IMG/VR virus record: IMGVR_UViG_3300032245_001466
Location: 18,938 to 82,937 of that record
Source of the DNA: a virus
Length of the DNA: 64,000 nt
Reading direction: 5' to 3' (one strand)
The position numbers and the translations under genes were made by a program. Shown here piece by piece: positions 10,216 through 26,515 of the stretch. Under the pieces are notes generated by a model. The model saw only the letters and a program-made list of their open reading frames with translations, did not search any database and was not told where the DNA came from. Positions within the stretch are counted from its first letter, which is position 1; each line of letters starts with the position of its first letter.

Positions 10216-10340
10216 TAGACCCGACCCTCCGGGTCTATCAGTCGACCAGATACAGACTGCGTGCGCGTGGCATTCTCTCCTCAGCGGCGAGACACTCTCG
10301 CCCATAGACGCATCGGACGCGATGCGAGAAGGAGTCAATC
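10216..10340 (+). promoter_or_regulatory. class A regulatory unit 0
   Basis: The order is palindrome TAGACCCG/CGGGTCTA (10216-10237), an extended -10 TGGCATTCT (-10 at 10271-10276), and a leader stem GGCGAG/CTCGCC (10286-10302). The ribosome site GAAGGAG comes before ATG 10341. The -35 position (AGATAC) is degenerate compared with the other class A units. Confidence 0.55.
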
Positions 10341-10637
10341 ATGACGGATCGAGTAGACGCAATCGGAGCCACGCTCCTCGCAATCTTCGCGGCAACGGTT
10401 GCCGCTATGATCTTCGGCAGCGTGCCGTTCAGCGTGCTGAACGATCACGCGTTCGCCTACGCGGTGATGTCGCTCACGATGGGCGTCATCGCAGCGGTAG
10501 CGTTCTTCGCTCTCATGGAGTTCGTTGTTGTTCCTGTTGTCGATAGGATCTACTGGGCGCGGCGAGCAGCACGCCAAGAGCGCGAGCGCATTGAGCGCGC
10601 TTATCGCTCGTGGTCAGTCACGCGCAATCAGCGCTAG
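10341..10637 (+). CDS. small membrane protein (98 aa)
   Basis: Two transmembrane segments are visible at about residues 9-30 (IGATLLAIFAATVAAMIFGS) and 40-68. A strongly basic, arginine-rich cytoplasmic tail follows (YWARRAARQERERIERAYRS). It is the first gene of the array in which each gene has its own promoter and terminator. The ribosome site is GAAGGAG. An inner-membrane host-takeover role is possible but not shown. Confidence 0.7.
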   Translation: MTDRVDAIGATLLAIFAATVAAMIFGSVPFSVLNDHAFAYAVMSLTMGVIAAVAFFALMEFVVVPVVDRIYWARRAARQERERIERAYRSWSVTRNQR

Positions 10638-10644
10638 TCGGATT

Positions 10645-10680
10645 CACCCGCTGTACCGCGGACGCGCGGTGCGGCGGGTG
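10645..10680 (+). terminator. terminator of gene 10341
   Basis: CACCCG (10645-10650) pairs with CGGGTG ending at 10680, around an inner ACCGCG/CGCGGT stem. No long U tract follows. The same layout recurs after each gene of this array. Confidence 0.6.
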
Positions 10681-10775
10681 GTTCGTTCGCGCCCACCTGT
10701 GGCCGCGTTCGATCTCACACACACATAATATAAGTAAGTAACTAAGTAATCTGACTAACCTAACAGGTTCGAGAC

Positions 10776-10868
10776 AGCGCTCCGCGCTTATCGAGGCCAC
10801 CTAATGACTGACCGCTATCGTGGCATTCTCTCGGTGCGGCAGTTGCCGTATAGTTTATTGGAGGGTGT
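10776..10868 (+). promoter_or_regulatory. class A regulatory unit 1
   Basis: The palindrome is AGCGC-TCC-GCGCT (10776-10788). The -35-like box is CTAATG (10801-10806), then an exact 17-base spacer and -10 CATTCT (10824-10829) with TG one base before it. The leader stem is GCGGC-AGTT-GCCGT (10836-10849), followed by TTGGAGGG. An irregular TAAC/TAAG tract lies upstream at 10725-10766. Confidence 0.65.
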
Positions 10869-11183
10869 ATGTTCGAGTATGGTGAACCAGTCGTATCCGC
10901 AACCTACCGCAACGACGCGGTCGCAACGGTCACGATGACCTATCCGTCATTGGAGGGCAAGCTTCCAATGTGGTACACGCTTGATTTGACAATCGGCGAT
11001 CTACCGCGTCTCGTTTGGGGCTACGGCGAATGGAAGGCGGGTAGCGTCAGCGATACGCCGCGCGTCTACTCACTGCTCAAGAATATTGGCGTGTGGACGG
11101 ATGTGCCAGCGTTCATCCGCAGGGATGTTCTCAACGACTACGCGTCATTGGTCGGCGTGACCATTCGCGGCAGCGTCCTGTAG
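10869..11183 (+). CDS. hypothetical protein (104 aa)
   Basis: This soluble-looking protein has beta-rich N-terminal sequence (VVSATYRNDAVATVTMTYPS) and a C-terminal helix-rich part (VPAFIRRDVLNDYASLVGV). The ribosome site is TTGGAGGGTGT. It is transcribed alone from class A unit 1 and ended by the stem-loop at 11193. I do not recognise it. Confidence 0.65.
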   Translation: MFEYGEPVVSATYRNDAVATVTMTYPSLEGKLPMWYTLDLTIGDLPRLVWGYGEWKAGSVSDTPRVYSLLKNIGVWTDVPAFIRRDVLNDYASLVGVTIRGSVL

Positions 11184-11192
11184 CGCACGCAA

Positions 11193-11227
11193 CCCCCATC
11201 GTCCAGACCATCGGGTCTGGGCGGTGG
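11193..11227 (+). terminator. terminator of gene 10869
   Basis: The GC-rich stem is built on CCAGACC/GGTCTGG with outer CCCCCATCG pairing toward CGGTGGG, ten bases after the stop. Confidence 0.55.
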
Positions 11228-11310
11228 GTGGTTCGTTGGCCGCCCCCCGATGGGCACAGTTCGATATCGAGACTCCATAATATAAGTAACAGCCTAACTA
11301 AGTTCGAAGC

Positions 11311-11408
11311 GGCGCTCCGCGCCTAACAACACCACCTAAACGAATCTGCTGCTCGTGGCACTCTCTTGGTGCGGGGCAACAGCACCGCAATAGTATGGAG
11401 GGAATCAA
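11311..11408 (+). promoter_or_regulatory. class A regulatory unit 2
   Basis: The palindrome is GGCGC-TCC-GCGCC (11311-11323). The -35-like box CTAAAC (11336-11341) is followed by a 17-base spacer and -10 CACTCT (11359-11364). The leader stem TGCGG/CCGCA spans 11370-11389. GGAGGG is the ribosome site. Confidence 0.65.
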
Positions 11409-11624
11409 ATGGCGTCAACGGCATGGAATCGCAAGAGTGCTGATTGGTATCAGCACAAGGCTACTGAGATCGTTGATATTGCGATGGACCTCACGAATCC
11501 ATCGGCAGACCTGGCGTTGGGTCTAGCCCACAAATGCGCAACGGCGTGGAGCCTCTCACCGCTCAATCGTGAGAAGTTCATGATGCTCGTATACGCAACG
11601 TTCAAGAACGCAATCAAGAAGTAG
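11409..11624 (+). CDS. hypothetical protein (71 aa)
   Basis: The small protein is mainly helical (RKSADWYQHKATEIVDIAMD, LGLAHKCATAWSLSPLNREK) with a basic end. It is driven by its own promoter and ribosome site (ATGGAGGGAATCAA). No motif is visible, and its role is unknown. Confidence 0.65.
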   Translation: MASTAWNRKSADWYQHKATEIVDIAMDLTNPSADLALGLAHKCATAWSLSPLNREKFMMLVYATFKNAIKK

Positions 11625-11650
11625 ATCGACCAATAGGTCGGCAACAGAAT

Positions 11651-11687
11651 CCACTCGCGGGTCGCAGTCGATGCGGCTCGCGGGTGG
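11651..11687 (+). terminator. terminator of gene 11409
   Basis: CCACTCGCG pairs with CGCGGGTGG, with one U-G pair in RNA. An inner partial stem (GTCGCA/TGCGGC) supports the fold. Confidence 0.6.
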
Positions 11688-11766
11688 TTCGTTCGCCACC
11701 ACACACAGGCCAGAGTTCTATCTCGAAGCTATGTAATATAAGTAAGTGGGTAACTAAGTTCGACGC

Positions 11767-11869
11767 GGCGCTCCGCGCCTAACATGCCCACCTAAACAAC
11801 ACTCTGGCGTGTGGCACTCTCTGGTCAGCGGCGGACGCGCCGCGTAATCGTATAGTAGTAGGAGGTAGT
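11767..11869 (+). promoter_or_regulatory. class A regulatory unit 3
   Basis: The palindrome is GGCGC-TCC-GCGCC (11767-11779). CTAAAC (11792-11797) lies 17 bases from -10 CACTCT (11815-11820). The leader stem is GCGGCG-GACG-CGCCGC (11828-11843), then GTAGGAGGTAGT. Confidence 0.65.
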
Positions 11870-12166
11870 ATGGTAGACGCAACCGTCAAGCACTACAACC
11901 CTATCGAGTGGGTTGTCTGGTTCGTAGAGGATAGGTCGCTATCTGATACGGAGAATAGCATCGAGTTCACGGAGCTTCAGGATCGTGTGAATGATCGGAT
12001 CACCGCCGCAATCACGGCGCTCCGTCATTCCAATCCAAACGGCTGGCTCGATAGCCTGGATCAGGGTGGCATGCGCATCATTAACGATGCGCTCGCGCCG
12101 ATCCAATGCCGCACGAATCGTCAGGACGATTCTGGCGCGTGGATCATTGAACGAGTAGACGCGTAA
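11870..12166 (+). CDS. hypothetical protein (98 aa)
   Basis: The protein has an aromatic N-terminus (HYNPIEWVVWFVEDRSLS) and a helical middle (FTELQDRVNDRITAAITALRH). The start follows TAGGAGGTAGT. It is a monocistronic member of the class A array with no recognised family. Confidence 0.65.
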   Translation: MVDATVKHYNPIEWVVWFVEDRSLSDTENSIEFTELQDRVNDRITAAITALRHSNPNGWLDSLDQGGMRIINDALAPIQCRTNRQDDSGAWIIERVDA

Positions 12167-12171
12167 AACAT

Positions 12172-12206
12172 CCCCCACTCATCGCGGACGCGCGGTGGGT
12201 GGGGGG
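12172..12206 (+). terminator. terminator of gene 11870
   Basis: CCCCCACTCATCGCG and CGCGGTGGGTGGGGG form a long stem around GACG, with the A/G and U/G positions tolerated as wobble or mismatch. Confidence 0.65.
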
Positions 12207-12288
12207 TTAGTTCGTCGCACCCCGTTCTGTGGCCAAGTTCTAACTCGAGATCCCATAATATAACTAACAGCCTAACTAAGTTCGAGTC

Positions 12289-12402
12289 AGCGCTCCGCGC
12301 TTAACGAGCACACCTAAATGAATCTGCTGCTCGTGGCATTCTCTTCTTGCGAGCGATGGCACCCGTATAGCAGCGGTGCTCGCAGAAAGGTAGGTGTTCA
12401 CG
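12289..12402 (+). promoter_or_regulatory. class A regulatory unit 4
   Basis: The palindrome is AGCGC-TCC-GCGCT (12289-12301). CTAAAT (12314-12319) lies 17 bases from -10 CATTCT (12337-12342). The leader stem is longer than usual: TGCGAGC (12348-12354) with GCTCGCA (12378-12384). The ribosome site is less ideal than in sister units. Confidence 0.65.
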
Positions 12403-12645
12403 ATGTCTAAGAATGACAATCTTGCCGTCGCGATCAAGCGCCGAGACAATGCTCTCGCGTTGCTTGTAAGCGCGAAGGCGGATGTTGTTGCTGCGACGCG
12501 TCGTATCGCCGAGAGCGGTGGTTCCTATTTGGGGAATCGCCCTTCGTCGCATCCGAGCGTTCAGACAGCACAACGCGTCCTCTGGAACGTTGAAGAGCAG
12601 TACGCCAAAGCGGCGGCTGATCTGGCAACGATCCAGAAGGCGTAG
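12403..12645 (+). CDS. hypothetical helical protein (80 aa)
   Basis: The product is almost fully helical and coiled-coil-like (AIKRRDNALALLVSAKADVV and VLWNVEEQYAKAAADLATIQ). I chose ATG 12403. A GTG at 12394 is in frame but too close to the AAAGG. It is monocistronic from class A unit 4. The function is unknown. Confidence 0.6.
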   Translation: MSKNDNLAVAIKRRDNALALLVSAKADVVAATRRIAESGGSYLGNRPSSHPSVQTAQRVLWNVEEQYAKAAADLATIQKA

Positions 12646-12662
12646 CGTCCGTCTGGATTCTC

Positions 12663-12731
12663 CGAACCGCTCGTCGCTGCTAGGCGAGCGGTTCCCCTTC
12701 TCCCCTCACCGAGCAAGCGCGGTGGGGGGAG
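12663..12731 (+). terminator. double stem-loop after gene 12403
   Basis: The first stem is GAACCGCTCG/CGAGCGGTTC (12663-12692), followed by CCCCTTCT. The second is CTCCCCTCACCG/CGGTGGGGGGAG (12700-12731). Two terminators in a row are unusual within the array. Confidence 0.65.
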
Positions 12732-12808
12732 AGGTCTATCGGGCCTCTCTCACTACGTTCGATCCCGACAGTCCATAATATAACTAACTAAGTAACTAAG
12801 TTCGAGTC

Positions 12809-12916
12809 AGCGCTCCGCGCTTAACGAGCCAACCTAAATGAATCTGCCGTCCGTGGGAATATTCATTTGCGACGGGAGAGACGTCGCCCATGTGGTTAAA
12901 GCAAATAGGAGGCTCT
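12809..12916 (+). promoter_or_regulatory. class A regulatory unit 5
   Basis: The palindrome is AGCGC-TCC-GCGCT (12809-12821). CTAAAT (12834-12839) is 17 bases from a weaker -10 GAATAT (12857-12862). The leader stem is GCGACG/CGTCGC (12869-12887), then ATAGGAGGCTCT. Confidence 0.6.
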
Positions 12917-13189
12917 ATGACGGATACCGAAAAGAAGGCAGCTCCGGTCACGTTGCTGCCATTTGTTGTCGTGGTCGCACGACTCGTTGAATTCTACATC
13001 CCTGTAGCAGCGGCTACAGCGGCTGATGCGAGTGATATCGCTCAGCAGATGGTCATGGATGGCCATGCTGATGATTTCTCCAACGAATGCGACATCCAGG
13101 AGGATGACGTTGACGTTCGGGGGGCGACGTTTGACGATCGCAACCTGTACAAATTCTTTGACGCGGACGGCGAAGAGCACCGCTTCTAG
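12917..13189 (+). CDS. hypothetical acidic protein (90 aa)
   Basis: ATG 12917 has the strong site AGGAGG at six bases, so the longer frame from 12890 is rejected. The N-terminal third contains a hydrophobic stretch (VTLLPFVVVVARLVEFYIPV) that could be a membrane or amphipathic helix. The rest is acidic (DDFSNECDIQEDDVDV). The function is unknown. Confidence 0.65.
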   Translation: MTDTEKKAAPVTLLPFVVVVARLVEFYIPVAAATAADASDIAQQMVMDGHADDFSNECDIQEDDVDVRGATFDDRNLYKFFDADGEEHRF

Positions 13190-13217
13190 ATCCTGACCGC
13201 CATCTCTCGGCGGTCAA

Positions 13218-13253
13218 CATCCCCCTCACCGCAGCGATGCGGTGAGGGGGATG
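13218..13253 (+). terminator. terminator of gene 12917
   Basis: A perfect 16-bp stem, CATCCCCCTCACCGCA with TGCGGTGAGGGGGATG, closes a GCGA tetraloop. Confidence 0.75.
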
Positions 13254-13302
13254 GTAGATCCCTAGTCTCTCTCACTACGTTCGAGCTCGAGAATCCGCAA
13301 TA

Positions 13303-13322
13303 TAACTAACTAACTAACTAAC
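13303..13322 (+). repeat. TAAC tandem repeat, five copies
   Basis: Five exact TAAC units precede class A unit 6. Three TAAC copies already put a stop codon in all three frames on both strands, so the tract also isolates neighbouring reading frames. Confidence 0.8.
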
Positions 13323-13336
13323 CCAGAGTTCGACTC

Positions 13337-13455
13337 GCCGCTCCGCGGCTAACATGCGTACCTAAATGAATCGGGCGGTCGGGGCATTATGTCGGCACGG
13401 GGACGCCCGACGCGTTGTGAATCGCAACGCGAAACAGAATCAAATAGGAGGCAGT
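13337..13455 (+). promoter_or_regulatory. class A regulatory unit 6
   Basis: The palindrome arms differ but still pair: GCCGC-TCC-GCGGC (13337-13349). CTAAAT (13362-13367) is 17 bases from -10 CATTAT (13385-13390). The leader stem CGGG-GACG-CCCG spans 13398-13409. A second stem, CGCGTTG/CAACGCG (13411-13431), precedes ATAGGAGGCAGT. Confidence 0.65.
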
Positions 13456-13716
13456 ATGGACGCACTGGAAATCTTGTACAAGGTATTCGCACTATCGTAT
13501 GTTGCCGAGCGCGAGGCGTATCGCAATGTTCAGCGTTGGGAGACGCTCGCAGCGGCGCAGGGGAAACCCGAACCGCAGTACGCAACCGATAGCGTGTACG
13601 CTTCGCTCATTGATGAGTGGGACGAAGCGCACAAGGAACTGAAGAAGTTTGAGCGCGAACTTCTCAAGGAGTACCGCAAGCAGCGAGCAGCGGGCACCTT
13701 CACAGTGATGGCGTAG
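13456..13716 (+). CDS. hypothetical helical protein (86 aa)
   Basis: ATG 13456 is set by AGGAGG at five bases. A longer frame from 13366 would start inside the promoter. The product is helical and charged (LIDEWDEAHKELKKFERELL) and may dimerise as a coiled coil. No family is recognised. Confidence 0.65.
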   Translation: MDALEILYKVFALSYVAEREAYRNVQRWETLAAAQGKPEPQYATDSVYASLIDEWDEAHKELKKFERELLKEYRKQRAAGTFTVMA

Positions 13717-13730
13717 ACACCGCCACGACA

Positions 13731-13770
13731 CCACACCCCATCAACCGCGGACGCGCGGTTGGTGGGGTGG
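13731..13770 (+). terminator. terminator of gene 13456
   Basis: CCACACCCCATCAACCGCG pairs with CGCGGTTGGTGGGGTGG around GACG. The A and U positions outside wobble pairing are few, and the stem is about 17 bp. Confidence 0.7.
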
Positions 13771-13818
13771 TCGGTCGGTACTCTCTCTCACGTTGTTCGA
13801 GCTCGGCAGCCCATAAGA

Positions 13819-13838
13819 TAACTAACTAACTAACTAAC
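13819..13838 (+). repeat. TAAC tandem repeat, five copies
   Basis: Five exact TAAC units, followed by CAATAACTGG, precede class A unit 7. The same tract, two to five copies long, recurs in this position before most genes of the array. Confidence 0.8.
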
Positions 13839-13856
13839 CAATAACTGGTTCGAATC

Positions 13857-13951
13857 GGCGCTCCGCGCCTAACGAGCCCACATAAACGAATCCGTCGCCT
13901 ATGACATTATTCAGGTGCGGCAGTTGCCGTGTAGTATGAAAGGGGAAAGAA
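13857..13951 (+). promoter_or_regulatory. class A regulatory unit 7
   Basis: The palindrome is GGCGC-TCC-GCGCC (13857-13869). ATAAAC (13882-13887) is 17 bases from -10 CATTAT (13905-13910). The leader stem GCGGC-AGTT-GCCGT spans 13917-13930, then AAAGGGG. Confidence 0.65.
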
Positions 13952-14278
13952 ATGTCACACGAGTTAGAGTTCAGTCACGATCCAAAGAGCGTCGCAGATC
14001 CCTGCTCTCTGGATAGTATCGTTGAGGCGTACATTGAATTCCGCAACGCACCTGTGCGTGGCACGAATCTCGTTTATCGGCAAATGCCCGTAGACGAGAT
14101 GCTCGCGATGACGCGCCGACCAGAGGATTTCATTGAGAGGCTAGGATCGTGGGCTGCGATCTGGGGTTCAGATTCTCAGCGATACGACATCGGCAAGTTC
14201 GGGTGGTGGTCCTGCTCCGAGTGCGGCGCCGATGACATTGAGTTAGGTTCATACGACGACGAGTGCGACGAAGAGTAG
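13952..14278 (+). CDS. hypothetical protein with C-terminal CxxC (108 aa)
   Basis: The protein has a mixed N-terminal part (LVYRQMPVDEMLAMTRRPED), a GWWSCSECGADD element near residue 88 and an acidic end (DDECDEE). A similar WECEEC or CSEC element ends the product at 15572, so the two genes may be distant relatives. The ribosome site is GAAAGGGGAAAG. The function is unknown. Confidence 0.65.
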   Translation: MSHELEFSHDPKSVADPCSLDSIVEAYIEFRNAPVRGTNLVYRQMPVDEMLAMTRRPEDFIERLGSWAAIWGSDSQRYDIGKFGWWSCSECGADDIELGSYDDECDEE

Positions 14279-14298
14279 TCGCCAATCGCTCCACTCTC

Positions 14299-14330
14299 CC
14301 ACCGCTCACCGCTTCGGCGGTGGGCGGTGG
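14299..14330 (+). terminator. terminator of gene 13952 with UUCG loop
   Basis: CCACCGCTCACCGC and GCGGTGGGCGGTGG pair around the very stable tetraloop UUCG. Confidence 0.7.
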
Positions 14331-14406
14331 TAGTTCCATCCCGAGTCTCTCACTTCGTTCGATCTCGAAACTCCATAAGATAACTAACTAACTGGGCGTT
14401 CGATCC

Positions 14407-14499
14407 GACGCTCCGCGTCTATCAGGAGAACCTAAACAATAATGGCGTCTATGTCATTGTCTCTCTGCGGCACCTGCCGTATAGTTTGTAGGAGGTAGT
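14407..14499 (+). promoter_or_regulatory. class A regulatory unit 8
   Basis: The palindrome is GACGC-TCC-GCGTC (14407-14419), a compensated variant. CTAAAC (14432-14437) is 17 bases from -10 CATTGT (14455-14460). The leader stem is GCGGC-ACCT-GCCGT (14467-14480), then TAGGAGGTAGT. Confidence 0.65.
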
Positions 14500-14823
14500 A
14501 TGTCGGACACAGAAACGATGAGCCTTCAGGAGATGGCTCGCGAACTGACGGTAATGCGCATTGAGCGTTCCCGCTGCTGCGATCCATACGATTGTATGCA
14601 TCACGAGATGTGCGGCGAAGAGTGGTACGGGAAATGCAGCGGCTGCGAGCGTCGTGCGTACCTTTCCAATGAATTCTACGCTGCGTGCGAAGCAGAGAAT
14701 GCAGATCCTGCCGCGCTGCTCAATGCAGAAGAGCGCGCTATTGAGGATGAGCGCTTTGACTTCTACTCGCGAATGAACGAGTGGGGCAATGACGACGCTG
14801 CCTTCTGGACCGATCAAGAGTAG
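14500..14823 (+). CDS. cysteine-rich hypothetical protein (107 aa)
   Basis: The middle holds six cysteines in CCDPYDCMHHEMC and CSGCERR (about residues 26-52), consistent with a small zinc-binding domain. The N- and C-termini are acidic and helical. The start follows TAGGAGGTAGT. It is monocistronic. The function is unknown. Confidence 0.65.
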   Translation: MSDTETMSLQEMARELTVMRIERSRCCDPYDCMHHEMCGEEWYGKCSGCERRAYLSNEFYAACEAENADPAALLNAEERAIEDERFDFYSRMNEWGNDDAAFWTDQE

Positions 14824-14829
14824 TCGCAT

Positions 14830-14863
14830 CACCCCGTTCACCGCTTTGGCGGTGGGCGGGGTG
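14830..14863 (+). terminator. terminator of gene 14500
   Basis: CACCCCGTTCACCGC pairs with GCGGTGGGCGGGGTG, with U-G wobbles, around a TTTG loop. Confidence 0.7.
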
Positions 14864-14936
14864 GTCTACCGAGGCTCTCTCACTACGTTCGATACCGAAC
14901 CCCCGTAAGATAACTAACTAACCCTGAGTTCGACTC

Positions 14937-15032
14937 GGCGCTCCGCGCCTAACGAGAGCACCTAAATGAATCACCCCCTCGTGGCATTCTCTTGGTGCGG
15001 CACTTGCCGCGTAGTATGAAAGGGGAGCGCAA
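14937..15032 (+). promoter_or_regulatory. class A regulatory unit 9
   Basis: The palindrome is GGCGC-TCC-GCGCC (14937-14949). CTAAAT (14962-14967) is 17 bases from extended -10 TGGCATTCT (-10 at 14985-14990). The leader stem is GCGGC-ACTT-GCCGC (14997-15010), then GAAAGGGGAG. This unit is closest to the class consensus. Confidence 0.7.
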
Positions 15033-15338
15033 ATGTTTGATTGCGTAAAGCACGGCGAGGTAGCGAAGAGTCTCAGTGGCTATTGCGTTGCTTGCTGCTC
15101 AGAGGATCATATCTGCGAAACCTGCGGATTGCGCAGCGGCAGTGATGATGGCTTCACTCTCGTTGAGTGGCGCAGCACGCAAATTTGGAAGGGTCAGATG
15201 CTTTGCGATGATTGCGTTGCGTGCGCAGATTGCGAAGTTTCTGGTGACGGTACCGTGAACACCCACAACGATTACAGCGAACTGCTTTGCGATGCTTGCG
15301 TTGAGGATCGCGACGCAGAGTGGGAGAGCGAAGAGTAG
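15033..15338 (+). CDS. zinc-finger-rich hypothetical protein (101 aa)
   Basis: At least ten cysteines lie in paired patterns: CVACC and CETCG near residues 18-32, CDDCVACADC near 58-67, and CDACVED near 86. This suggests two or three zinc knuckles resembling LIM or RING-like folds. The C-terminus is acidic. Phage proteins of this type often bind host transcription or degradation machinery, but no target can be read here. Confidence 0.65.
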   Translation: MFDCVKHGEVAKSLSGYCVACCSEDHICETCGLRSGSDDGFTLVEWRSTQIWKGQMLCDDCVACADCEVSGDGTVNTHNDYSELLCDACVEDRDAEWESEE

Positions 15339-15354
15339 TCACAACCGATCCACT

Positions 15355-15391
15355 CCACCATCGTCAACCGCTCGGCGGTTGGCGGTGGTGG
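15355..15391 (+). terminator. terminator of gene 15033
   Basis: CCACCATCGTCAACCGC pairs with GCGGTTGGCGGTGGTGG around TCG, with one U-G pair. Confidence 0.7.
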
Positions 15392-15438
15392 TTCAATCGG
15401 GAGTCTCTCACTTCGTTCGATCCCGACAGTCCGTAATA

Positions 15439-15458
15439 TAACTAACTAATTAACTAAC
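15439..15458 (+). repeat. TAAC tandem repeat with one TAAT
   Basis: TAAC-TAAC-TAAT-TAAC-TAAC precedes class A unit 10. The single variant copy shows that the tract is drifting rather than freshly copied. Confidence 0.75.
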
Positions 15459-15476
15459 TAATAACTGGTTCGACTC

Positions 15477-15571
15477 GGCCCTCCGGGCCTATCGGCCTAA
15501 CATAAATGAATCAATCGTTTGCCGTACTCTCTGGGTGCGGCGGTTGCCGTGTAGTAATAAGGAGGCTAGTA
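15477..15571 (+). promoter_or_regulatory. class A regulatory unit 10
   Basis: The palindrome is a further compensated variant, GGCCC-TCC-GGGCC (15477-15489). ATAAAT (15502-15507) is 17 bases from -10 TACTCT (15525-15530). The leader stem GCGGC-GGTT-GCCGT spans 15537-15550, then AAGGAGGCTAGT. Confidence 0.65.
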
Positions 15572-15916
15572 ATGGGAGCAATGAAGAATCAAGCAATAGA
15601 GGAGCGCAACGATAGCGTCGTTGATTATCACACATGGCGATTCGTAGAAGCCGATGGCGGTGCTGATCAGCACGCGCTAGAGTGGTGGGCGTCATCATAC
15701 GCTCGCCGTGCCGATACCGCCGACGAAGCGGTAGACGTCATGGAGAAGCCGCATCACTACGCTGAGGAGATTGCAGAGTTCGCCAGCATTTATGCTGACG
15801 CGAGCGATGACGACCTCTCGCTATTCGGCTATTGGGAGTGTGAAGAGTGCGGCGAAGAGTCCAAGAGGATCTCGCACTCGATAGACATGGCGAAGACCTG
15901 CTACGGTCAGCAGTAG
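15572..15916 (+). CDS. hypothetical protein with C-terminal zinc motif (114 aa)
   Basis: ATG 15572 is fixed by AAGGAGGCTAGTA. The frame upstream to 15506 lies in the promoter. The protein is acidic and helical (YAEEIAEFASIYADASDDDL) with WECEECGEES near residue 88, resembling the CSEC element of the 13952 product. The function is unknown. Confidence 0.65.
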   Translation: MGAMKNQAIEERNDSVVDYHTWRFVEADGGADQHALEWWASSYARRADTADEAVDVMEKPHHYAEEIAEFASIYADASDDDLSLFGYWECEECGEESKRISHSIDMAKTCYGQQ

Positions 15917-15919
15917 CGC

Positions 15920-15957
15920 ACCGCCCCACTCACCGCTTCGGCGGTGGGTGGGGCGGT
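15920..15957 (+). terminator. terminator of gene 15572 with UUCG loop
   Basis: A 17-base arm, ACCGCCCCACTCACCGC, pairs with GCGGTGGGTGGGGCGGT around UUCG. The only non-Watson-Crick pair is a U-G. Confidence 0.75.
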
Positions 15958-16002
15958 CTATCGGGCCTCTCTCACTTCGTTCGAGCTCGCCAACCTGACT
16001 AA

Positions 16003-20414: not shown

Positions 20415-20433
20415 TGTGTCCTCCTATCGCAAC

Positions 20434-20515: not shown

Positions 20516-20528
20516 CCGAAACAATAAA

Positions 20529-20567: not shown

Positions 20568-20734
20568 GCGTATCGCCGCTATGACGCTTATCCCCTTGCG
20601 GAGGCAACCTTCGGCTCTCGCCTAGTTGCTGCTGACTCTACCTTCTCTGGTTAGGAGCCCAAGAGCCAGACCTTATCGTCGCGGGCAGTTCGTCAATCTG
20701 CCAACTAGCCGTCCTCTACACGGCGCGGATTTAT
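20568..20734 (-). ncRNA. non-coding tail or small RNA after gene 20735
   Basis: About 165 bases lie between the stop at 20735 and the terminator, far more than elsewhere in this compact array. No reading frame is supported. Short complementary stretches (CTGG/CCAG, CGGCGAT) suggest folding. It may be a processed small RNA or a long 3' untranslated region. Confidence 0.4.
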
Positions 20735-21019
20735 TTACGCTTTCACCTCGTACTGCTCGCCGCCGATTCGCAGCGCGGTGATTGCGTCAAGGGCGATTGA
20801 GCGATAGCCCTCTGCGGTAATGTCATAGACGAAGATGAGGTCTTTGGCAGCAGCGTCATACGCAGCCTCGCCGCCTTTGAGATGCTTCTTTACGCCAAGA
20901 CGCGCCGTCATCTTGCGAAGTTCGCCCGTGGTTCGCTTGATGAAGTCCACGCCGAAGATTGCGCCATTGCTGTTGCGAATCATCTCTGCCGCTTCGCTTC
21001 GCTTGATTGCCTTTGCCAT
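20735..21019 (-). CDS. WYL_2 / SH3-like beta-barrel phage protein
   Basis: This 94-residue protein has NGAIFGVDFIKRTTGELRKM near residues 17-36, then ARLGVKKHLKGG and LIFVYDITAEGYRSIALDAI. This series matches the phage family described as WYL_2, an Sm-like SH3 beta-barrel fold. Its biochemical role is not established; a nucleic-acid or ligand-binding role is plausible. ATG 21019 follows GGAGGAAGAA; the frame up to 21037 is less likely. Confidence 0.75.
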   Translation of the reverse strand: MAKAIKRSEAAEMIRNSNGAIFGVDFIKRTTGELRKMTARLGVKKHLKGGEAAYDAAAKDLIFVYDITAEGYRSIALDAITALRIGGEQYEVKA

Positions 21020-21041
21020 TTCTTCCTCCTTGTTCACAGCA

Positions 21042-21125
21042 CCCCAATCGGGGCAAGCCCATTATAGGGTCATCTTTTGCCAGCCGTCAAGTGGGTTCTA
21101 GCCCAAGAGGCCGGAGCCTCTTGGG
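21042..21125 (-). promoter_or_regulatory. class B regulatory unit 9
   Basis: Palindrome CCCAAGAGGC-CGGA-GCCTCTTGGG spans 21102-21125. The -35 is TTGACG (21085-21090), the spacer 18 bases and the -10 TATAAT (21061-21066). Seven bases on is the leader stem CCCC-GATT-GGGG (21042-21053). Confidence 0.8.
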
Positions 21126-21141
21126 GCTGAACTATAATCGC

Positions 21142-21318
21142 CTACTTCCAGTCTTCTGGAACTAACTGCCAATCCTTTTCGCAATCACTAGAATAAAGGT
21201 CGCAATGCCGACACCAGACGACAAAGCAGCCCTCCTCGTGTCCGTCTTTCTCGCAATCAGACCAGAGCCAATGCGCCTCGCGAAGATTGTCTGGGCAGTC
21301 GCAGCGAAGAACGCTCAT
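21142..21318 (-). CDS. cysteine/histidine-rich small protein (58 aa)
   Basis: ATG 21318 overlaps the stop of gene 21315 as ATGA. The product has CDCPDN, HWLWSDC and CFVVWCRHC elements, with at least six cysteines and nearby histidines, so zinc binding is likely. A longer frame from 21369 lies inside the upstream gene and is rejected. The function is unknown. Confidence 0.6.
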   Translation of the reverse strand: MSVLRCDCPDNLREAHWLWSDCEKDGHEEGCFVVWCRHCDLYSSDCEKDWQLVPEDWK

Positions 21319-21764
21319 AGGACTTCGCAACCTTTCAGGGTGCGGCAAAGACCCAGAAACTCTCGCCACTCCTCAATAATCGCAACCCAAGCCGTAGCCT
21401 CTTCATCTGGGTCAGCCTTCGTCTTATCGTCCGTGTACGGGCTGGCAAGAAGAATACCAGTAATAATCTTCTTGATTTCTTCTTCGCTCAACTTGGAGAT
21501 GGCATTGTGTAGTTCTTCGCACTCATAGTCCTTGATGATGTTGCCGCTGTTATCGTACAGATTCTCATTGACCTCGGTGAATCCAATCTCATCGTGGAAA
21601 GCGCGCAGGTAGCCCATACCCCAAATGTTCAGTCGGAAATAGACCGCGCTTGGAGCCTTCTCAGCGTAAGAGCCGTCTGGCTCAATCCACATTGAGCGGA
21701 ACTTCTTGGCGTGCGCCGCAGCCAGTTCACGATTCTCTCGCAATGAGTAGATGTCGTATCCCAT
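21315..21764 (-). CDS. hypothetical phage protein (149 aa)
   Basis: ATG 21764 has AAGGAGGACAAA, so the frame up to 21875 is rejected. The product starts MGYDIYSLRENREL and has YFRLNIWGMGYLRAFHDE near residues 43-60, a pattern I associate with small phage early proteins. The C-terminal part is helical and acidic (SEEEIKKIITGILLASPYTDD). The biochemical role is unknown. Confidence 0.65.
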   Translation of the reverse strand: MGYDIYSLRENRELAAAHAKKFRSMWIEPDGSYAEKAPSAVYFRLNIWGMGYLRAFHDEIGFTEVNENLYDNSGNIIKDYECEELHNAISKLSEEEIKKIITGILLASPYTDDKTKADPDEEATAWVAIIEEWREFLGLCRTLKGCEVL

Positions 21765-21784
21765 TTTGTCCTCCTTATTCCACA

Positions 21785-21866
21785 CCCCAATCAGGGCAAG
21801 GTCATTGTAAGGTACCGCTCTCCGCTCGTCAATAGGTTCTAGCCAAGATGGCCGGAGCCATCTTGG
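21785..21866 (-). promoter_or_regulatory. class B regulatory unit 10
   Basis: Palindrome CCAAGATGGC-CGGA-GCCATCTTGG spans 21843-21866. The -35 is TTGACG (21827-21832), the spacer 17 bases and the -10 TACAAT (21804-21809). A short CCC/GGG leader stem lies at 21785-21796. Confidence 0.75.
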
Positions 21867-21877
21867 GTACAACAAAA

Positions 21878-21895
21878 AACCGCCCGAAGGCGGTT
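21878..21895 (-). terminator. terminator of gene 21918
   Basis: On the minus strand, AACCGCC-TTCG-GGCGGTT is followed by TTTTGTTG. Confidence 0.85.
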
Positions 21896-21917
21896 AGTTG
21901 TTTGGAAATAATCCTGA

Positions 21918-22394
21918 CTAAACGATAACTTCCTGCGGCTCCATAAGCCCAGCCCAGATGTTTGGCACATTAGAGCGGATGCTCGTGTATCCGTCAGAGG
22001 AAATAACGAGATGGTCAAGAAACTCAATGTCCAACAGGCGCGCCCCTGCCACCAAGTCCTCAGTTAGTTTCTTGTCCTCGTCGGACGGAGTGTGGTCGCC
22101 GCTTGGGTGATTGTGAACAACCACAATGCCCTGACCGCCAGTCAGGATACAAGAGCGAAACACTTCGTTGATGCGAACGCTTGTGCCTGTTGCCGTGCCA
22201 AGATAGACCTGCTCAATCCCGATGAGATTATTCCTTGCCCCAAGCACCATCACAAACAGCGACTCCTGATTAGAGTCCTTTGCGAAATCGCGGAACATCT
22301 TTACTGCCTCGGCTGGCTGCTCAACCCTCTCATCGGACTGATCAGCAACCTTCTTTCTCTTTACCACCATTTCGTATGCTTTCCAGTTCTTCAC
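21918..22394 (-). CDS. radC: RadC-like JAB-domain protein
   Basis: This 158-residue protein carries the JAB/MPN+ metalloprotease-like core of RadC: VVVHNHPSGDHTPSDED at about residues 95-111. The two His and the final Asp are the zinc ligands. An upstream LFVMVLGARNNLIGIEQVYLG segment and a downstream LLDIEFLDHLVISSDGYTS complete the family pattern. The N-terminal helix-hairpin-helix of bacterial RadC is absent. RadC proteins sit in phages, plasmids and defence islands, but their reaction is unsettled. The start overlaps the stop of gene 22391. Confidence 0.85.
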   Translation of the reverse strand: MKNWKAYEMVVKRKKVADQSDERVEQPAEAVKMFRDFAKDSNQESLFVMVLGARNNLIGIEQVYLGTATGTSVRINEVFRSCILTGGQGIVVVHNHPSGDHTPSDEDKKLTEDLVAGARLLDIEFLDHLVISSDGYTSIRSNVPNIWAGLMEPQEVIV

Positions 22395-22939
22395 GCTACC
22401 ACCACCTTTGCTGCTTCCTCTTTGGTTGTCTTGCCGCTGCGAATCTCATCTCGCAACTCAATCCCTTCCTTCATCCAGATTGCGTCAAGTTCGGCGTTGC
22501 GCTTCTCAGCGTGCTTTGCCTCGCGCAAACCTTCCTCAGTCATACGCTCAACAACGCGCTTGCGCCAAGCCGTCGGCGACTCATAAGAGGCGTTTGTTGA
22601 GAGTCCGATGTGCCGAACGATGTCGGCACGCGTCAGAGGGCGAGCCTCAAAGCAATCTGCGTTCTTATCGCCGTCTGGCTCGTTTCCGTTCCATACGGTC
22701 ATCTTTGAGAGCCAACCGATTTCGTATGCGAGCGCGAGTCGCTGCTCCCACTCATCCACATTGGCTTCGGTGATTTCGTTTAGTCCAATCGTCATCGTCG
22801 CCCAGATGAAGGAGTTCGTGATTGGGCTGAGGTACTCCTCGCCGCGCACGCGTCCATCCATCACGCTGCTCTTTGTTGCGGTGAGCCAACAGACATCATC
22901 CGCGTCCTTGATGTTTCCCACGAACCAACTTAGTGGCAT
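22391..22939 (-). CDS. hypothetical protein (182 aa)
   Basis: The protein starts MPLSWFVGNIKDADDVCW and has FIWATMTIGLNEITEANVDE near residues 44-63. The C-terminal third is a long charged helix (RMTEEGLREAKHAEKRNAEL). This layout suggests a globular domain plus a coiled-coil tail. It is the first gene of an operon with radC, behind AAGGAGGCAGT. No family is recognised. Confidence 0.65.
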   Translation of the reverse strand: MPLSWFVGNIKDADDVCWLTATKSSVMDGRVRGEEYLSPITNSFIWATMTIGLNEITEANVDEWEQRLALAYEIGWLSKMTVWNGNEPDGDKNADCFEARPLTRADIVRHIGLSTNASYESPTAWRKRVVERMTEEGLREAKHAEKRNAELDAIWMKEGIELRDEIRSGKTTKEEAAKVVVA

Positions 22940-22961
22940 ACTGCCTCCTTATGTCCTCTTA

Positions 22962-23046
22962 TCGGGAAGCCCCGACCTGCTTATTCTAAGACCACGCTTG
23001 ACCCGCTGTCAAATGGGTTCTAGTCCAATGAGCCGGAGCTCATTGG
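22962..23046 (-). promoter_or_regulatory. class B regulatory unit 11
   Basis: Palindrome CCAATGAGC-CGGA-GCTCATTGG spans 23025-23046. The -35 is TTGACA (23007-23012), the spacer 18 bases and the -10 TAGAAT (22983-22988). Seven bases on is the leader stem TCGGG-GCTT-CCCGA (22962-22975). Confidence 0.8.
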
Positions 23047-23067
23047 AGGCGAACTATTATCTGCTTA

Positions 23068-23538
23068 TTACTTGATTTGGTTTGTCGTATAACCGCACGC
23101 CATACAAACTGGGACGGAGCAGCCTTCGGGATTGTCGCCCGTATCTACGCCCTCATCTGGGTCGCACAATCCACACGGCGCATAATCGACATCACGGCAG
23201 AGGCACTCGCTTTTCGCATCTCGCGGCAAGTCGTTGTAGTGCCTGTGCCAGTTTGCGTCGCCGTCGCGATTCAGCGCAAACTCGCAATCAGGGCGGAAGC
23301 ACCAACCATCAGCAACGGCTTCCTTGTCCGACATAAATGGCGGGTGAAACTCACACTCGCACGGAGCGCAGTCCAAGCAGTAGACGAGATAGCCATCTGG
23401 CACGCTTCCATCATACTGATCAAAGTCAAGCGTATCGAATCGCGTGTACGGCATACCATTCCAAGTGCCGATGACCTTCTCGTCGGCGTAGAAGACCATC
23501 GTGGAGCAGCGAACGCATTTGTCCATCTGCCCACTCAT
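23068..23538 (-). CDS. cysteine-rich hypothetical protein (156 aa)
   Basis: This protein has at least fourteen cysteines in several pairs: CVRCS near the N-terminus, CLDCAPCECEFH near residues 57-68, CLCRDV, CGLCDPD and CMACGY near the end. Several zinc sites are likely. The start overlaps the stop of gene 23535 as ATGA. A longer frame to 23553 lies inside the upstream gene. The function is unknown. Confidence 0.65.
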   Translation of the reverse strand: MSGQMDKCVRCSTMVFYADEKVIGTWNGMPYTRFDTLDFDQYDGSVPDGYLVYCLDCAPCECEFHPPFMSDKEAVADGWCFRPDCEFALNRDGDANWHRHYNDLPRDAKSECLCRDVDYAPCGLCDPDEGVDTGDNPEGCSVPVCMACGYTTNQIK

Positions 23539-23843
23539 TCTGCTTCCTCCCACTCCGCGCCCTGCTCAATCAGGGAAACGAATCCTTCATTTGGATCATC
23601 GTGGTTGGTGTGAACTGCCTGTACGAATCGCAACGAACAAGAGTTCTCGTACCACTCCATCACCGCGCTCAGCATCTCATCTGGCGTGGTGTCTTCCGCG
23701 GAGATCAGCGGATCATAGCCGTACCCGCGCATCTCCGACATCTGCTCATCGTCCATCAAGACATAGATCTTGTGGCAGGTATCAAACGCGATGCCCTTCG
23801 CATTTTCTAGATACTCCTCAACCTTGTCGAAACTCGCTGCCAT
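23535..23843 (-). CDS. hypothetical acidic protein (102 aa)
   Basis: The protein is acidic and helical (FDKVEEYLENAKGIAFDTCH, DEMLSAVMEWYENSC) and ends EWEEAE. It begins behind TAGGAGGACGAA from class B unit 12 and leads a two-gene operon. No motif is visible. Confidence 0.65.
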   Translation of the reverse strand: MAASFDKVEEYLENAKGIAFDTCHKIYVLMDDEQMSEMRGYGYDPLISAEDTTPDEMLSAVMEWYENSCSLRFVQAVHTNHDDPNEGFVSLIEQGAEWEEAE

Positions 23844-23863
23844 TTCGTCCTCCTAGTTTCTAC

Positions 23864-23948
23864 ACGGCAACTGCCGTAGGTGGATTGTAAGGCACAACCT
23901 AGCGGCTCGTCAAATGTTCTACTCCAAGTGGCCGGAGCCACTTGGAGT
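23864..23948 (-). promoter_or_regulatory. class B regulatory unit 12
   Basis: Palindrome ACTCCAAGTGGC-CGGA-GCCACTTGGAGT spans 23921-23948. The -35 is TTGACG (23908-23913), the spacer 18 bases and the -10 TACAAT (23884-23889). Six bases on is the leader stem ACGGC-AGTT-GCCGT (23864-23877). This leader matches the class A type. Confidence 0.8.
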
Positions 23949-23957
23949 AAAACAAAA

Positions 23958-23980
23958 ATCCCGCCCCGAAGGGCGGGATT
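23958..23980 (-). terminator. terminator of gene 24004
   Basis: On the minus strand, AATCCCGCCC-TTCG-GGGCGGGATT is followed by TTTGTTTT. Confidence 0.85.
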
Positions 23981-24003
23981 TCTGGTTGATCTTCTGGTGA
24001 AGA

Positions 24004-24966
24004 TTACGCGAGGGCGAGAATCGCCTCGCGCTTTGTCTTCGCTGCGAAGCCCGTATCCAACATCACGCTTGACGCTCGCGCATCAAGAGCCGTTGAGCGA
24101 ACGCCGCCACGATACGAAACGCCGTGATCGAGGTACTCCGCGATGGCGTTGTACACGCCCCACTTCGTATCGCGAAGCCCGTCAAGATTCTCCGCGTTAT
24201 TGAGAATCGCGAAAGTTGCCTTAGCGCGCTCCGACATTACTTCCTTATCGCGCTTCTCCGATTCAGAGAGCGGGAAGATCTTTGAGATGATGCGGAACGC
24301 CTCAGATCGCTCAATCTTCTGGGCAACCATCTGCGAGCCGATGCGCGAGAACTCATCAACAGCGGCAGAGGCAAGCCCAAGAGCGCGCTTCGCCTCCGCG
24401 ACTTTCTCCTCAATCTTCGCCGTGTGGCGAAGTGTGAACGACATCTTCGCGCTTCCAAGAGCCGCGTTGAGCGTATTCTGGCATACCACGCGCACAGGAG
24501 TGATCATCGCTTTGAGCGGGAACAGCCCGTTGTGCCCATTGGCGATGACGAGGTAAGTCGTCGTGCCGCCGTTGTCGCCCTTGATCTCGATCTTCTCAGG
24601 AATCTCCAACGCCGCGAAGATCACCTGACCGCCTTTGAGTGAACCAGCCGTTTCGTAGCGCGCACCCTCATCAAGCAGCGCGTCCGCGAACGACAGCATC
24701 TCATCGTTCTGGATTGGCGTGTAGCGGTCGCCGACAACGCCAAGAACCGCGCCGTCAGTTGATCGAACATTTGCGCGCTTGCCCTCGATGGCGAGCGTCT
24801 TGTTGTCGAGCGTTGTGAAGATCGGCTGCTGCTTGACCTGCCAATCAAGACCCGCGGCAACGATCATTTCCGCGCTCGTAGTAAGACCTGCGTTTGCTAC
24901 GCCAAGTCCGTGCCACGGCATACCGCGCTCCGCGTTGTATGCCATCGTTTCTACCTCGTGTGCCAT
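24004..24966 (-). CDS. DUF932 phage/plasmid-like protein
   Basis: This 320-residue protein matches the DUF932 family. It has an N-terminal PWHGLG near residues 15-20, GDRYTPIQNDEMLSFADAL near 80-98 and VRVVCQNTLNAAL near 159-171, and a long helical C-terminus. These proteins are common on phages and plasmids near recombination and anti-defence genes. No activity is firmly established. ATG 24966 follows AAGGAGGACACA; the frame up to 25035 crosses the promoter. Confidence 0.85.
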   Translation of the reverse strand: MAHEVETMAYNAERGMPWHGLGVANAGLTTSAEMIVAAGLDWQVKQQPIFTTLDNKTLAIEGKRANVRSTDGAVLGVVGDRYTPIQNDEMLSFADALLDEGARYETAGSLKGGQVIFAALEIPEKIEIKGDNGGTTTYLVIANGHNGLFPLKAMITPVRVVCQNTLNAALGSAKMSFTLRHTAKIEEKVAEAKRALGLASAAVDEFSRIGSQMVAQKIERSEAFRIISKIFPLSESEKRDKEVMSERAKATFAILNNAENLDGLRDTKWGVYNAIAEYLDHGVSYRGGVRSTALDARASSVMLDTGFAAKTKREAILALA

Positions 24967-24986
24967 TGTGTCCTCCTTCTTTACAT

Positions 24987-25066
24987 ACGGCAACTGCCGT
25001 AAGAAGATTCTCCCACAAGCACAAGATCGCGTCAAGTTCTAGCCCAAAGGGCCGGAGCCCTTTGGG
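24987..25066 (-). promoter_or_regulatory. class B regulatory unit 13
   Basis: Palindrome CCCAAAGGGC-CGGA-GCCCTTTGGG spans 25043-25066. The -35 is TTGACG (25030-25035), the spacer 17 bases and the -10 GAGAAT (25007-25012). Six bases on is the leader stem ACGGC-AGTT-GCCGT (24987-25000). Confidence 0.75.
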
Positions 25067-25077
25067 TGGAACATAAT

Positions 25078-25109
25078 AATAAGCCCCCCGAATAATCGAG
25101 GGGCTTATT
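25078..25109 (-). terminator. terminator of gene 25152
   Basis: AATAAGCCCC and GGGGCTTATT form a 10-bp stem; the minus strand continues ATTATGTT. Confidence 0.7.
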
Positions 25110-25151
25110 ACTTTGTGGGGCGCAGGGAGGACGCCTTGCGCCCCGAAGTCA

Positions 25152-25964
25152 TCAGCCTCCGACGATGCCGCCGAAATGCTCCTCGCAGAACGACTCAAAC
25201 TCCGTCTGCGGAACGGCATCATAATCTCGCTCGCCGTATTGCGGCTTGCCATCTTCGCCCTTGTACCACGCCTCATCTGGCAGCGAGTCGCCATCGCCAA
25301 ACTCACGCCGCGAGATTTCGTTTCCCGCGTGATAGACAACTTCGCCAGCGTAGCCCATACCGCCTTCGCAATAACGATGAGTAATGGTCAGCGTTGGGAA
25401 TAACCCAGAGAGCGCGTGAATCACAGGCTCGGCAGGGCTCCACGCGGTATCAAAGTTGTATGAAGTTATACCCGCGACAAATGAGTCGTCGCGGTCGTGC
25501 CAAGCCTCGGAGCAGTTCCACTTTGTTCCCCAATGCTCAACATTCCAGTTGTACCACCAGTCTGGGTGTGAGGAAATCTTTGGGGTGTTGTGCTTTGGGC
25601 AGACCTCTGAGCCGCCGAACATCTGAGCAACAGAGTCAGTAATCGTGCCGTTATCAAGGTTCGTCTTCTTTACCTCAACGCCGTCCACAGCCCAATAGCC
25701 TTCTTGAGGCTCAAAGCCGTAGTCCTTCTCGTACTCGTGTCCTTCGGCTCCCTTGACCACCGCCTTGGTGATAACGAACTCTGGGTGGCAGCCACAAAGG
25801 AAATCGTTCTGATTCTCGTTGGCTGAATAGTACGGAACATCAGGAGTCGGAACAATCTTCGCGAAATCGAAGCCGTCCTCTTCGCCCTTGACCAACTCAA
25901 TGAGTCGGACAATCTCCTGCTCGTTTCCGCTGATGTCTACTTGGTTTACGCACCAGTTTGGCAT
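25152..25964 (-). CDS. Api92-like ferredoxin-fold protein (DUF1281)
   Basis: This 270-residue protein has the signature MPNWCVNQVDISG at the N-terminus, WNVEHWGTKWNC near residues 139-150 and DTAWSPAEPVIHALSGLFP near 172-190. These match the Api92-like family of phage and plasmid proteins. The C-terminal half holds a ferredoxin-like fold in this family. The function is unknown. ATG 25964 has AAGGAGGACACA. Confidence 0.8.
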   Translation of the reverse strand: MPNWCVNQVDISGNEQEIVRLIELVKGEEDGFDFAKIVPTPDVPYYSANENQNDFLCGCHPEFVITKAVVKGAEGHEYEKDYGFEPQEGYWAVDGVEVKKTNLDNGTITDSVAQMFGGSEVCPKHNTPKISSHPDWWYNWNVEHWGTKWNCSEAWHDRDDSFVAGITSYNFDTAWSPAEPVIHALSGLFPTLTITHRYCEGGMGYAGEVVYHAGNEISRREFGDGDSLPDEAWYKGEDGKPQYGERDYDAVPQTEFESFCEEHFGGIVGG

Positions 25965-25984
25965 TGTGTCCTCCTTGTGTCCTC

Positions 25985-26067
25985 GCGGGAAGCCCCGCAC
26001 CATTGGATTGTAAGCCACCGCTTCCGCTGCTGTCAAGTTCTACCTCAACAAGCCGGAGCTTGTTGAG
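25985..26067 (-). promoter_or_regulatory. class B regulatory unit 14
   Basis: Palindrome CTCAACAAGC-CGGA-GCTTGTTGAG spans 26044-26067. The -35 is TTGACA (26031-26036), the spacer 18 bases and the -10 TACAAT (26007-26012). Eight bases on is the leader stem GCGGG-GCTT-CCCGC (25985-25998). Confidence 0.8.
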
Positions 26068-26085
26068 CGCGAACTAATTATTTTT

Positions 26086-26418
26086 TTATTTATCGAAAGA
26101 GAGTGCACTAACTCCGTCAGGCGTCATGACCACATGTCCACCTTCGACGAAGATGCGTCCGCCATCGTTAGCCTCATCATCAGATGAAATAATCAGGGAA
26201 TAACGCTTGCCGTTCTGCTTGACGAATAACACGGGCATGTATGGCTCTTCCTCGCCATCGCCAATAACTGTCCCACCAATAATCGTCGCCCCAATAAATG
26301 GCTCGACCATCTCTGTCCGAAGGTAGTGGCGCTCAATGGCATCGCGGCTCAAGCCAGTCCGCTCTTTCACTAACTGATTCCTATTGCTCAATAACTGCGC
26401 AATCGTTTCGACAGCCAT
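26086..26418 (-). CDS. hypothetical protein (110 aa)
   Basis: ATG 26418 has AAGGAGGAAGTT. The first part is helical (IAQLLSNRNQLVKERTGLSR) and the second beta-rich (IGATIIGGTVIGDGEEEPYM, RIFVEGGHVVMTPDG). It is the promoter-most gene of the minus-strand array. The family is not recognised. Confidence 0.65.
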   Translation of the reverse strand: MAVETIAQLLSNRNQLVKERTGLSRDAIERHYLRTEMVEPFIGATIIGGTVIGDGEEEPYMPVLFVKQNGKRYSLIISSDDEANDGGRIFVEGGHVVMTPDGVSALSFDK

Positions 26419-26437
26419 AACTTCCTCCTTACACCTA

Positions 26438-26515
26438 TAGGCTAACTGCCTAACCGCATTATAAGTCAGCCAATAACCGTCTGTCAAATAATAAGGTTCG
26501 GGCCTCGCTTGCGAG
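26438..26515 (-). promoter_or_regulatory. class B regulatory unit 15
   Basis: This divergent variant has a short palindrome CTCGC/GCGAG (26504-26515). The -35 is TTGACA (26482-26487), the spacer 18 bases and the -10 TATAAT (26458-26463). Five bases on is the leader stem TAGGC/GCCTA (26438-26452), again with changed but paired arms. Confidence 0.7.

Follow-up and report, generated by a model that had tools for sequence, protein, structure and literature searches.

Stem-loops at the inferred 5' ends of messages from small-gene arrays in a phage lineage, conserved by compensatory change

The small-gene array and its leader hairpins

The window analysed here is a stretch of 64,000 nucleotides (nt) covering bases 18,938-82,937 of an 82,937-base IMG/VR virus contig (IMGVR_UViG_3300032245_001466). 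It contains phage head, terminase, DnaC-like loader, SSB and exonuclease genes and, from 10.3 to 26.5 kilobases (kb), an array of small genes whose function is mostly unassigned by family, with a Pfam match in 3 of the 28 array proteins scanned, one of the three being marginal. The subject of this study is a short stem-loop in the leader of these genes, which lies directly past the promoter and, as we place the transcription starts, forms the first bases of the message. The array is made of 26 units: class A, 12 units reaching to ~16.4 kb, is on the plus strand, and class B, the 14 units past that point, is on the minus strand.

The classes differ in their promoters. Class B promoters are near-perfect sigma70-like sequences, TTGAC-17/18-TANNNT, several of which reach 11-12 of 12 matches in a scoring that took in most of the promoters. 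Class A promoters, at 10271-16103 and also in two loci of related contigs (L114 and L116), have a C/T-A-Y-T-N-T box resembling a -10 element and no -35 consensus. A third type, class C (CGGTGGA..TGGCATNNT), is found in two relatives with 64-73% identical genes. The hairpin is present under all three of these unrelated promoter types, and under sigma70-like promoters both with and without an upstream repeat; in class C it begins mostly 6-9 bases past the box. DUF1281 genes with no promoter directly upstream (in loci L138, L146, L149 and L152) have no hairpin.

The initial annotation proposed a stem-loop just past nearly every array promoter, and this is confirmed in the window for 26 of 26 units, with every arm pair it named being found. 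For class B (16.8-26.5 kb, minus strand) it had set the stem 5-8 bases, mostly exactly 7, after the -10 box; with a stem in 14 of 14 array promoters, the first paired base can now be fixed as the 7th after the box in ten and the 8th in four, and all 14 have A or G as the 7th base. At the far end, the gene starting at 26418 has the promoter TTGACA-18-TATAAT at 26487-26458, an inferred +1 at 26451 and the stem-loop AGGC AGTTA GCCT (TAGGC/GCCTA) at 26439-26451. GCTT loops close the arms TGCGGG/CCCGCG at 25984-25999 (DUF1281_C gene start 25964, inferred +1 at 26000), a stem-loop retained in orthologues on other contigs, and GTCGGG/CCCGAT at 22961-22976 (gene start 22939) and again at 17986-18001 (17963). 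AGTT closes ACGGC/GCCGT twice, at 24987-25000 before the DUF932 gene (24966) and at 23864-23877 (23843), while GATT closes GCCCT/GGGGT at 21784-21797 (21764) and GCCCC/GGGGT at 21041-21054 (21019). ACTT is the loop of CGCTC/GGGCG at 20435-20448 (20414), CCCC/GGGG at 19374-19385 (19352), AGCCC/GGGCT at both 18457-18470 (18435) and 17417-17430 (17394), and GCCC/GGGC at 16860-16871 (16836). The remaining unit has GTCGG GAACTA CCGAT at 18921-18936 (18900).

In class A (10.27-16.15 kb, plus strand), the hairpin begins ~6-9 bases past the box in 12 of 12 units. AGTT loops are found in GTGCGGC/GCCGTAT at 10834-10851 (gene start 10869) and GCGGC/GCCGT at 13917-13930 (13952), followed along the array by GCGGC ACCT GCCGT at 14467-14480 (14500), GCGGC ACTT GCCGC at 14997-15010 (15033), GCGGC GGTT GCCGT at 15537-15550 (15572) and GCGGG GCTT CCCGT at 16110-16123 (16146). 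GACG loops close GCGGCG/CGCCGC at 11828-11843 (11870) and CGGG/CCCG at 13398-13409 (13456), the latter with a second hairpin behind it at 13411-13431. Longer or shorter loops are present in GCGACG GGAGAGA CGTCGC at 12869-12887 (12917) and GGCGAGA CAC TCTCGCC at 10286-10302 (10341), which begins 9 bases past its box. Two units are exceptions in having imperfect or long hairpins, both as predicted folds: TGCGG..CCGCA with an internal G.A mismatch at 11370-11389 (11409), and the long GCGAGC..GCTCGC at 12349-12383 (gene at ~12403).

Position at the promoter and compensatory change

Class B promoters were picked by their -35 and -10 boxes, Shine-Dalgarno site and open reading frame, and array membership by the upstream GAAC, pairing never being used. 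This selection gave 61 distinct array leaders from seven contigs. A stem of 4 base pairs (bp) or more is present at +1/+2 in 60 of them; when the same leaders are dinucleotide-shuffled 200 times, the mean is 5.8 and the maximum 13. TTGAC promoters outside the arrays in the same genomes are followed by a stem in 5 of 34 cases; three copies of a single array gene, missed by the GAAC filter, are among the five, and the count without them is 2 of 31. Class A leaders from three genomes have the stem in 28 of 31 cases (shuffles: mean 2.3, maximum 8).

A wider set comprises 239 distinct leaders in 31 loci of related IMG/VR contigs, the relatives having been located via the DUF1281 gene. A strong stem lies exactly at the inferred +1/+2 in 187 of these leaders, against an average of 8.9 and a maximum of 15 in dinucleotide shuffles. 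Throughout the set the best stems begin mainly at offsets 5-7, with a steep drop past offset 8, and the number of stem starts declines on either side of +2. Distant phages with promoter-like sequences have stems at a frequency of 4.3-6.2%. At two more distant phage loci (L180 and L169), promoter-like sequences are followed by strong +1/+2 hairpins, and on the strength of these loci the trait may extend past this phage lineage.

Of the 61 array leaders, 60 have a purine as the 7th base past the -10 box, in keeping with a transcription start there; the stem would close on that base or the next one. In folds predicted from this +1, at most one 5' base stays unpaired in 212 of 239 leaders, compared to 106 of 239 when shuffled. 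The suggestion that the mRNAs start with a hairpin is consistent with the +1/+2 stems, the 5' ends being read off promoter geometry.

The stems also bear out the initial annotation in its claim that an RNA structure is kept by compensatory change, which is well supported by orthologues, by a fixed-register test and by tolerance of G.U with exclusion of A.C. There are 101 distinct arm pairs across the 239 leaders and 30 in the 61 leaders nearest the window. Orthologues of a 112-amino-acid family have the arms AGCCC/GGGCT, CCCC/GGGG and AGTCC/GGACT, those of a 94-amino-acid family GCCCC/GGGGT and GTACC/GGTAC, and those of a 270-amino-acid family TGCGGG/CCCGCG and GCAGGG/CCCTGT. The covariation to be expected among related leaders is present in DUF1281 orthologues, whose eight distinct 14-mers are paired in 95% of cells and score 1.13 for covariation versus 0.28 when shuffled, with 0 of 500 shuffles matching; covariation is also seen in a second orthologous leader family. 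The 14-mers used for pair counts are loop-centred and thus biased towards structure, and whole-leader MAFFT alignment misplaced the stems.

The fixed-register tests take their register from the -10 box and are free of pairing information. At one exact register, 33 of the 61 leaders are fully paired (shuffled 6.3, maximum 15), and a leader's own halves pair in 180 of 237 cases, compared to 43, and at most 62, when the 3' halves are dealt among leaders. Covariation and register shuffles leave sequence kinship in place. Inheritance alone is nonetheless unlikely as the cause of the pairing, because there are 101 arm pairs and orthologues with wholly different arms.

Pair types were counted outside the Watson-Crick core of three pairs. 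At pair 4, A.C occurs 0 times versus 10 expected and G.T 14 times versus 15.8; at pair 5, A.C occurs 2 times versus 13.9 and G.T 28 times versus 28.4. At pair 6, G.T is in excess (35 versus 20.4) and A.C is undepleted (9 versus 6.1). A G.T of the coding strand becomes G.U in its transcript, whereas the opposite strand has A.C at that place, so selection acts on the structure in coding-strand RNA.

Further elements lie beside the leaders. Just before each class B -35 box, and nearly always 3 bases before GAAC, there is an inverted repeat of at least 7 pairs (18513-18540, for example), with 46 arm sequences in 67 units and the loop CGCG, TCCG, GGCG or CGCC. Only 9 G.T occur among its 691 pairs, and it looks like a structure-conserved element that pairs at the DNA level. 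Class A units such as 15442-15500 carry TAACTAAC repeats, GTTCGA and a GGCGCTCCGCGCC-like hairpin, then the class A promoter, and a related motif with CTCGCCTCCGGCGAG marks a further unit type in loci L110 and L122. A candidate non-coding RNA of ~230 nt at 19470-19727 (minus strand) has its own TTGACA-18-GATACT promoter and a strong terminator, recurs in ~20 relatives' loci at 72-99% identity along most or part of its length, belongs to no Rfam family and seems by eye to open with a closed stem, GTCGG/CCGAC, at its inferred +1. A second conserved non-coding stretch, of ~207 nt at 20529-20735 (minus strand), ends in a long terminator hairpin and has counterparts in ~16 relatives' loci, 72-99% identical along its whole length or part of it (93% in L114), with no Rfam family at gathering score.

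Candidate functions and the tetraloop rule

With the structure, its promoter-relative place, its covariation, its RNA-level nature and its spread over phages and three promoter types established, we consider it probable that the hairpin acts as a 5'-terminal cap against 5'-end-dependent decay on short, mostly single-gene array mRNAs. Each array promoter would give rise to such a message with a compact leader, in which a 4-7 bp hairpin at +1/+2 would come first, then ~9-14 unpaired bases, and then a strong Shine-Dalgarno site ahead of the start codon. Such a hairpin would tie up the 5' triphosphate end, leaving 0-1 bases unpaired, and would keep pyrophosphohydrolases of the RppH kind, and then the 5'-monophosphate-sensing RNase E and RNase J, from starting decay, while sitting just upstream of the Shine-Dalgarno site and not covering it. 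A tied 5' end, free arm sequence, a position off the Shine-Dalgarno site and a leader of 30-39 nt (in 167 of the 187 leaders with a recognised core) have together the expected look of a decay guard. Of the functions offered in the initial annotation, a block to decay fits best, protein binding is possible given the conserved loop, and tuning of initiation finds no specific support.

Several points weigh against an end cap. We infer both the transcription starts, from promoter geometry, and the effect on message stability. In class C, in unit 10341 and in some class A units, the hairpin begins a few bases later, given the -10 box as placed here, and the conservation of the loop far exceeds the need of pure end protection. 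Which decay enzymes would apply is a guess, the host being placed only via relatives of the array's DUF932 gene. Those in cultured phages are mostly on phages of Mycobacterium, Streptomyces, Microbacterium, Arthrobacter and Gordonia, and the host is therefore likely an actinobacterium. No close cultured relative of the window phage was found, a host search across bacterial genomes returned remote protein relatives only, and the related DUF932 genes of two cultured phages, Sonali and Blett, lack a leader hairpin of this kind.

Loops of ACTT, AGTT and GCTT had been described as frequent; they do recur, and they are instances of a more general rule that goes beyond that description, the tetraloop being A/G-N-U-U (RNUU) in 132 of 151 cases (87%) versus 2.3% by composition. 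Arms of 4, 5, 6 and 7 bp all obey the rule, which means that the loop is tied to the stem and not to its spacing from +1. RNUU may give a compact loop, with an R-U pair possible across a two-base turn, and to our knowledge it is absent from the usual lists of extra-stable tetraloops.

This frequency, maintained as arm length moves the loop relative to +1, and the recurrence of the same RNUU-type loops in class A leaders are what one would expect if the hairpin were recognised, through RNUU, by an RNA-binding protein of the phage or host that regulates, stabilises or marks the array mRNAs jointly. However, such a binding site has no need for placement at +1, and other loops (GACG and AACC among class A leaders, and loops of 5-7 nt in part of the relatives) occur with the +1 position retained. 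Class C leaders have further loops, GATGT among them. No RNA-binding protein was recognised in the proteins scanned, a weak test with most of them being of unassigned function, and the 25 commonest families listed in the protein scans include no phage sigma factor, RNA polymerase, Nudix or RNA-binding protein. We regard a joint protein site as a serious contender, though an unlikely one, and that a protein reads the RNUU loop at all as possible rather than expected. A bolder version, which we hold to be quite improbable, makes the RNUU hairpin a genome-wide cap whose loop code is read by a dedicated protein marking phage messages as self; these messages would be protected or preferentially translated while host messages get cleared.

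We find it very unlikely that the hairpin, as a standby or spacer structure, regulates translation or the loading of ribosomes and not decay. The leaders are short and uniform, as this would have it, but the tight constraint is on the distance to the transcription start and not to the start codon, and the accessibility of the Shine-Dalgarno site, 6-17 nt from the stem, is unaffected by the hairpin: its probability of being unpaired is 0.63 with the hairpin and 0.59 with the hairpin letters permuted. This unchanged accessibility rules out Shine-Dalgarno sequestration. An intrinsic terminator or attenuator is ruled out by the lack of a U-run directly past the stem, at least 5 T being present in the 8 bases that follow in only 2 of 201 cases.

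If the inverted repeat were instead a DNA operator to which a dimeric regulator binds just past the promoters, its location would be unsurprising, the transcription start being a common operator position and the arrays looking co-regulated. Yet related phages contain >100 arm pairs, conservation is highest in the loop, which is no palindrome, and a double-stranded site would not tolerate G.T while excluding A.C; we reject the operator, a highly improbable reading, on this G.U/A.C asymmetry and the diversity of the arms. Scarcely credible is an origin of the palindromes in templated mutation (quasi-palindrome correction) with little selected function, a process that would give something like the nearby upstream inverted repeat, almost all Watson-Crick and with many arms, and that is disfavoured for the leader stem because mutation alone predicts none of its G.U tolerance, its fixed place under three kinds of promoter and its fixed loop rule.

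Comparison with known systems and significance

The closest parallels to a 5'-terminal cap come from single transcripts. The Mycobacterium tuberculosis small RNA DrrS has a GC-rich 5-bp stem whose first base is +1; this stem-loop is stabilising, at least 2 added unpaired 5' bases destabilise the RNA, and the stem-loop placed at the start site of lacZ raises expression threefold (PMC5360333). The leaders described here resemble DrrS, whose host is an actinobacterium, in having a short stem from the first transcribed base, as we place it, and differ in forming a family of phage mRNAs, DrrS being a single host small RNA with no loop rule. Bacillus subtilis RppH requires at least 2 unpaired 5' bases, and Escherichia coli RNase E favours an accessible 5' monophosphate (PMC3997798). 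According to work referenced in the same paper, 5'-terminal stem-loops stabilise the ompA and papA mRNAs of E. coli and aprE of B. subtilis (references in PMC3997798). As in the accounts of these mRNAs given there, the stem here would open the mRNA, ahead of the Shine-Dalgarno site, and is proposed to block 5'-end-dependent decay; ompA, papA and aprE are single genes, whereas here >200 leaders follow one plan with differing sequences.

The mRNA of T7 gene 10 is made by T7 RNA polymerase from late promoters. Its stem-loop raises mRNA level and expression in Cupriavidus (PMC6146998) and, as cited there, was reported to be stabilising by Mertens 1996. Unlike T7 gene 10, the arrays have one hairpin per small gene, with covarying arms. 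The leader hairpins share with the class of stabilising stem-loops formed by ompA, T7 gene 10 and DrrS a position at the 5' end, for the inferred start, and a reliance on structure and not arm sequence (101 arm pairs, covariation).

Two other systems invite comparison. The SAS/ESAS elements of cluster K mycobacteriophages have inverted repeats that their authors judged not to pair as RNA (PMC3203893). They too are repeated upstream inverted-repeat elements of an actinophage on many small non-structural genes; unlike their fixed consensus, in which changes do not compensate, the arms here vary freely and compensate. The 13-bp SAS GGGATAGGAGCCC, allowing at most 2 mismatches, has 4 matches in the 64 kb and none in an array leader; it is not clearly enriched (chance mean 1.1, with 4 of 100 shuffles reaching 4). 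We reject SAS/ESAS membership because the element is absent from array leaders and arm changes compensate. The SPO1 host-takeover module is an array of small early genes with strong promoters; the 3-5 promoter-like leaders there that match the patterns used here have a stem in 1 of 3 (strict) or 0 of 5 (loose), too few to compare. Rfam release 15 gives no match at gathering score in 9500-27500 and, in the loci of five relatives, nothing except a transfer RNA. We found no report in the open-access literature searched of systematic 5'-terminal hairpins across phage gene arrays.

The principle of a protective 5' hairpin is known, and single mRNAs that have one are textbook cases; its use across whole gene arrays with a loop code appears to be undescribed. 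Here, one hairpin appears to stand on nearly every message of large arrays throughout a whole phage lineage, in >200 natural variants, and the RNUU rule provides a separate clue that a factor may read such hairpins. If the 5'-terminal cap holds true, these leaders would represent a counterpart of capping in bacterial viruses, would supply a ready-made set of short 5' stabilisers for use in gene expression, and would allow a direct test of how phages shield their messages from the 5'-end decay of the host.

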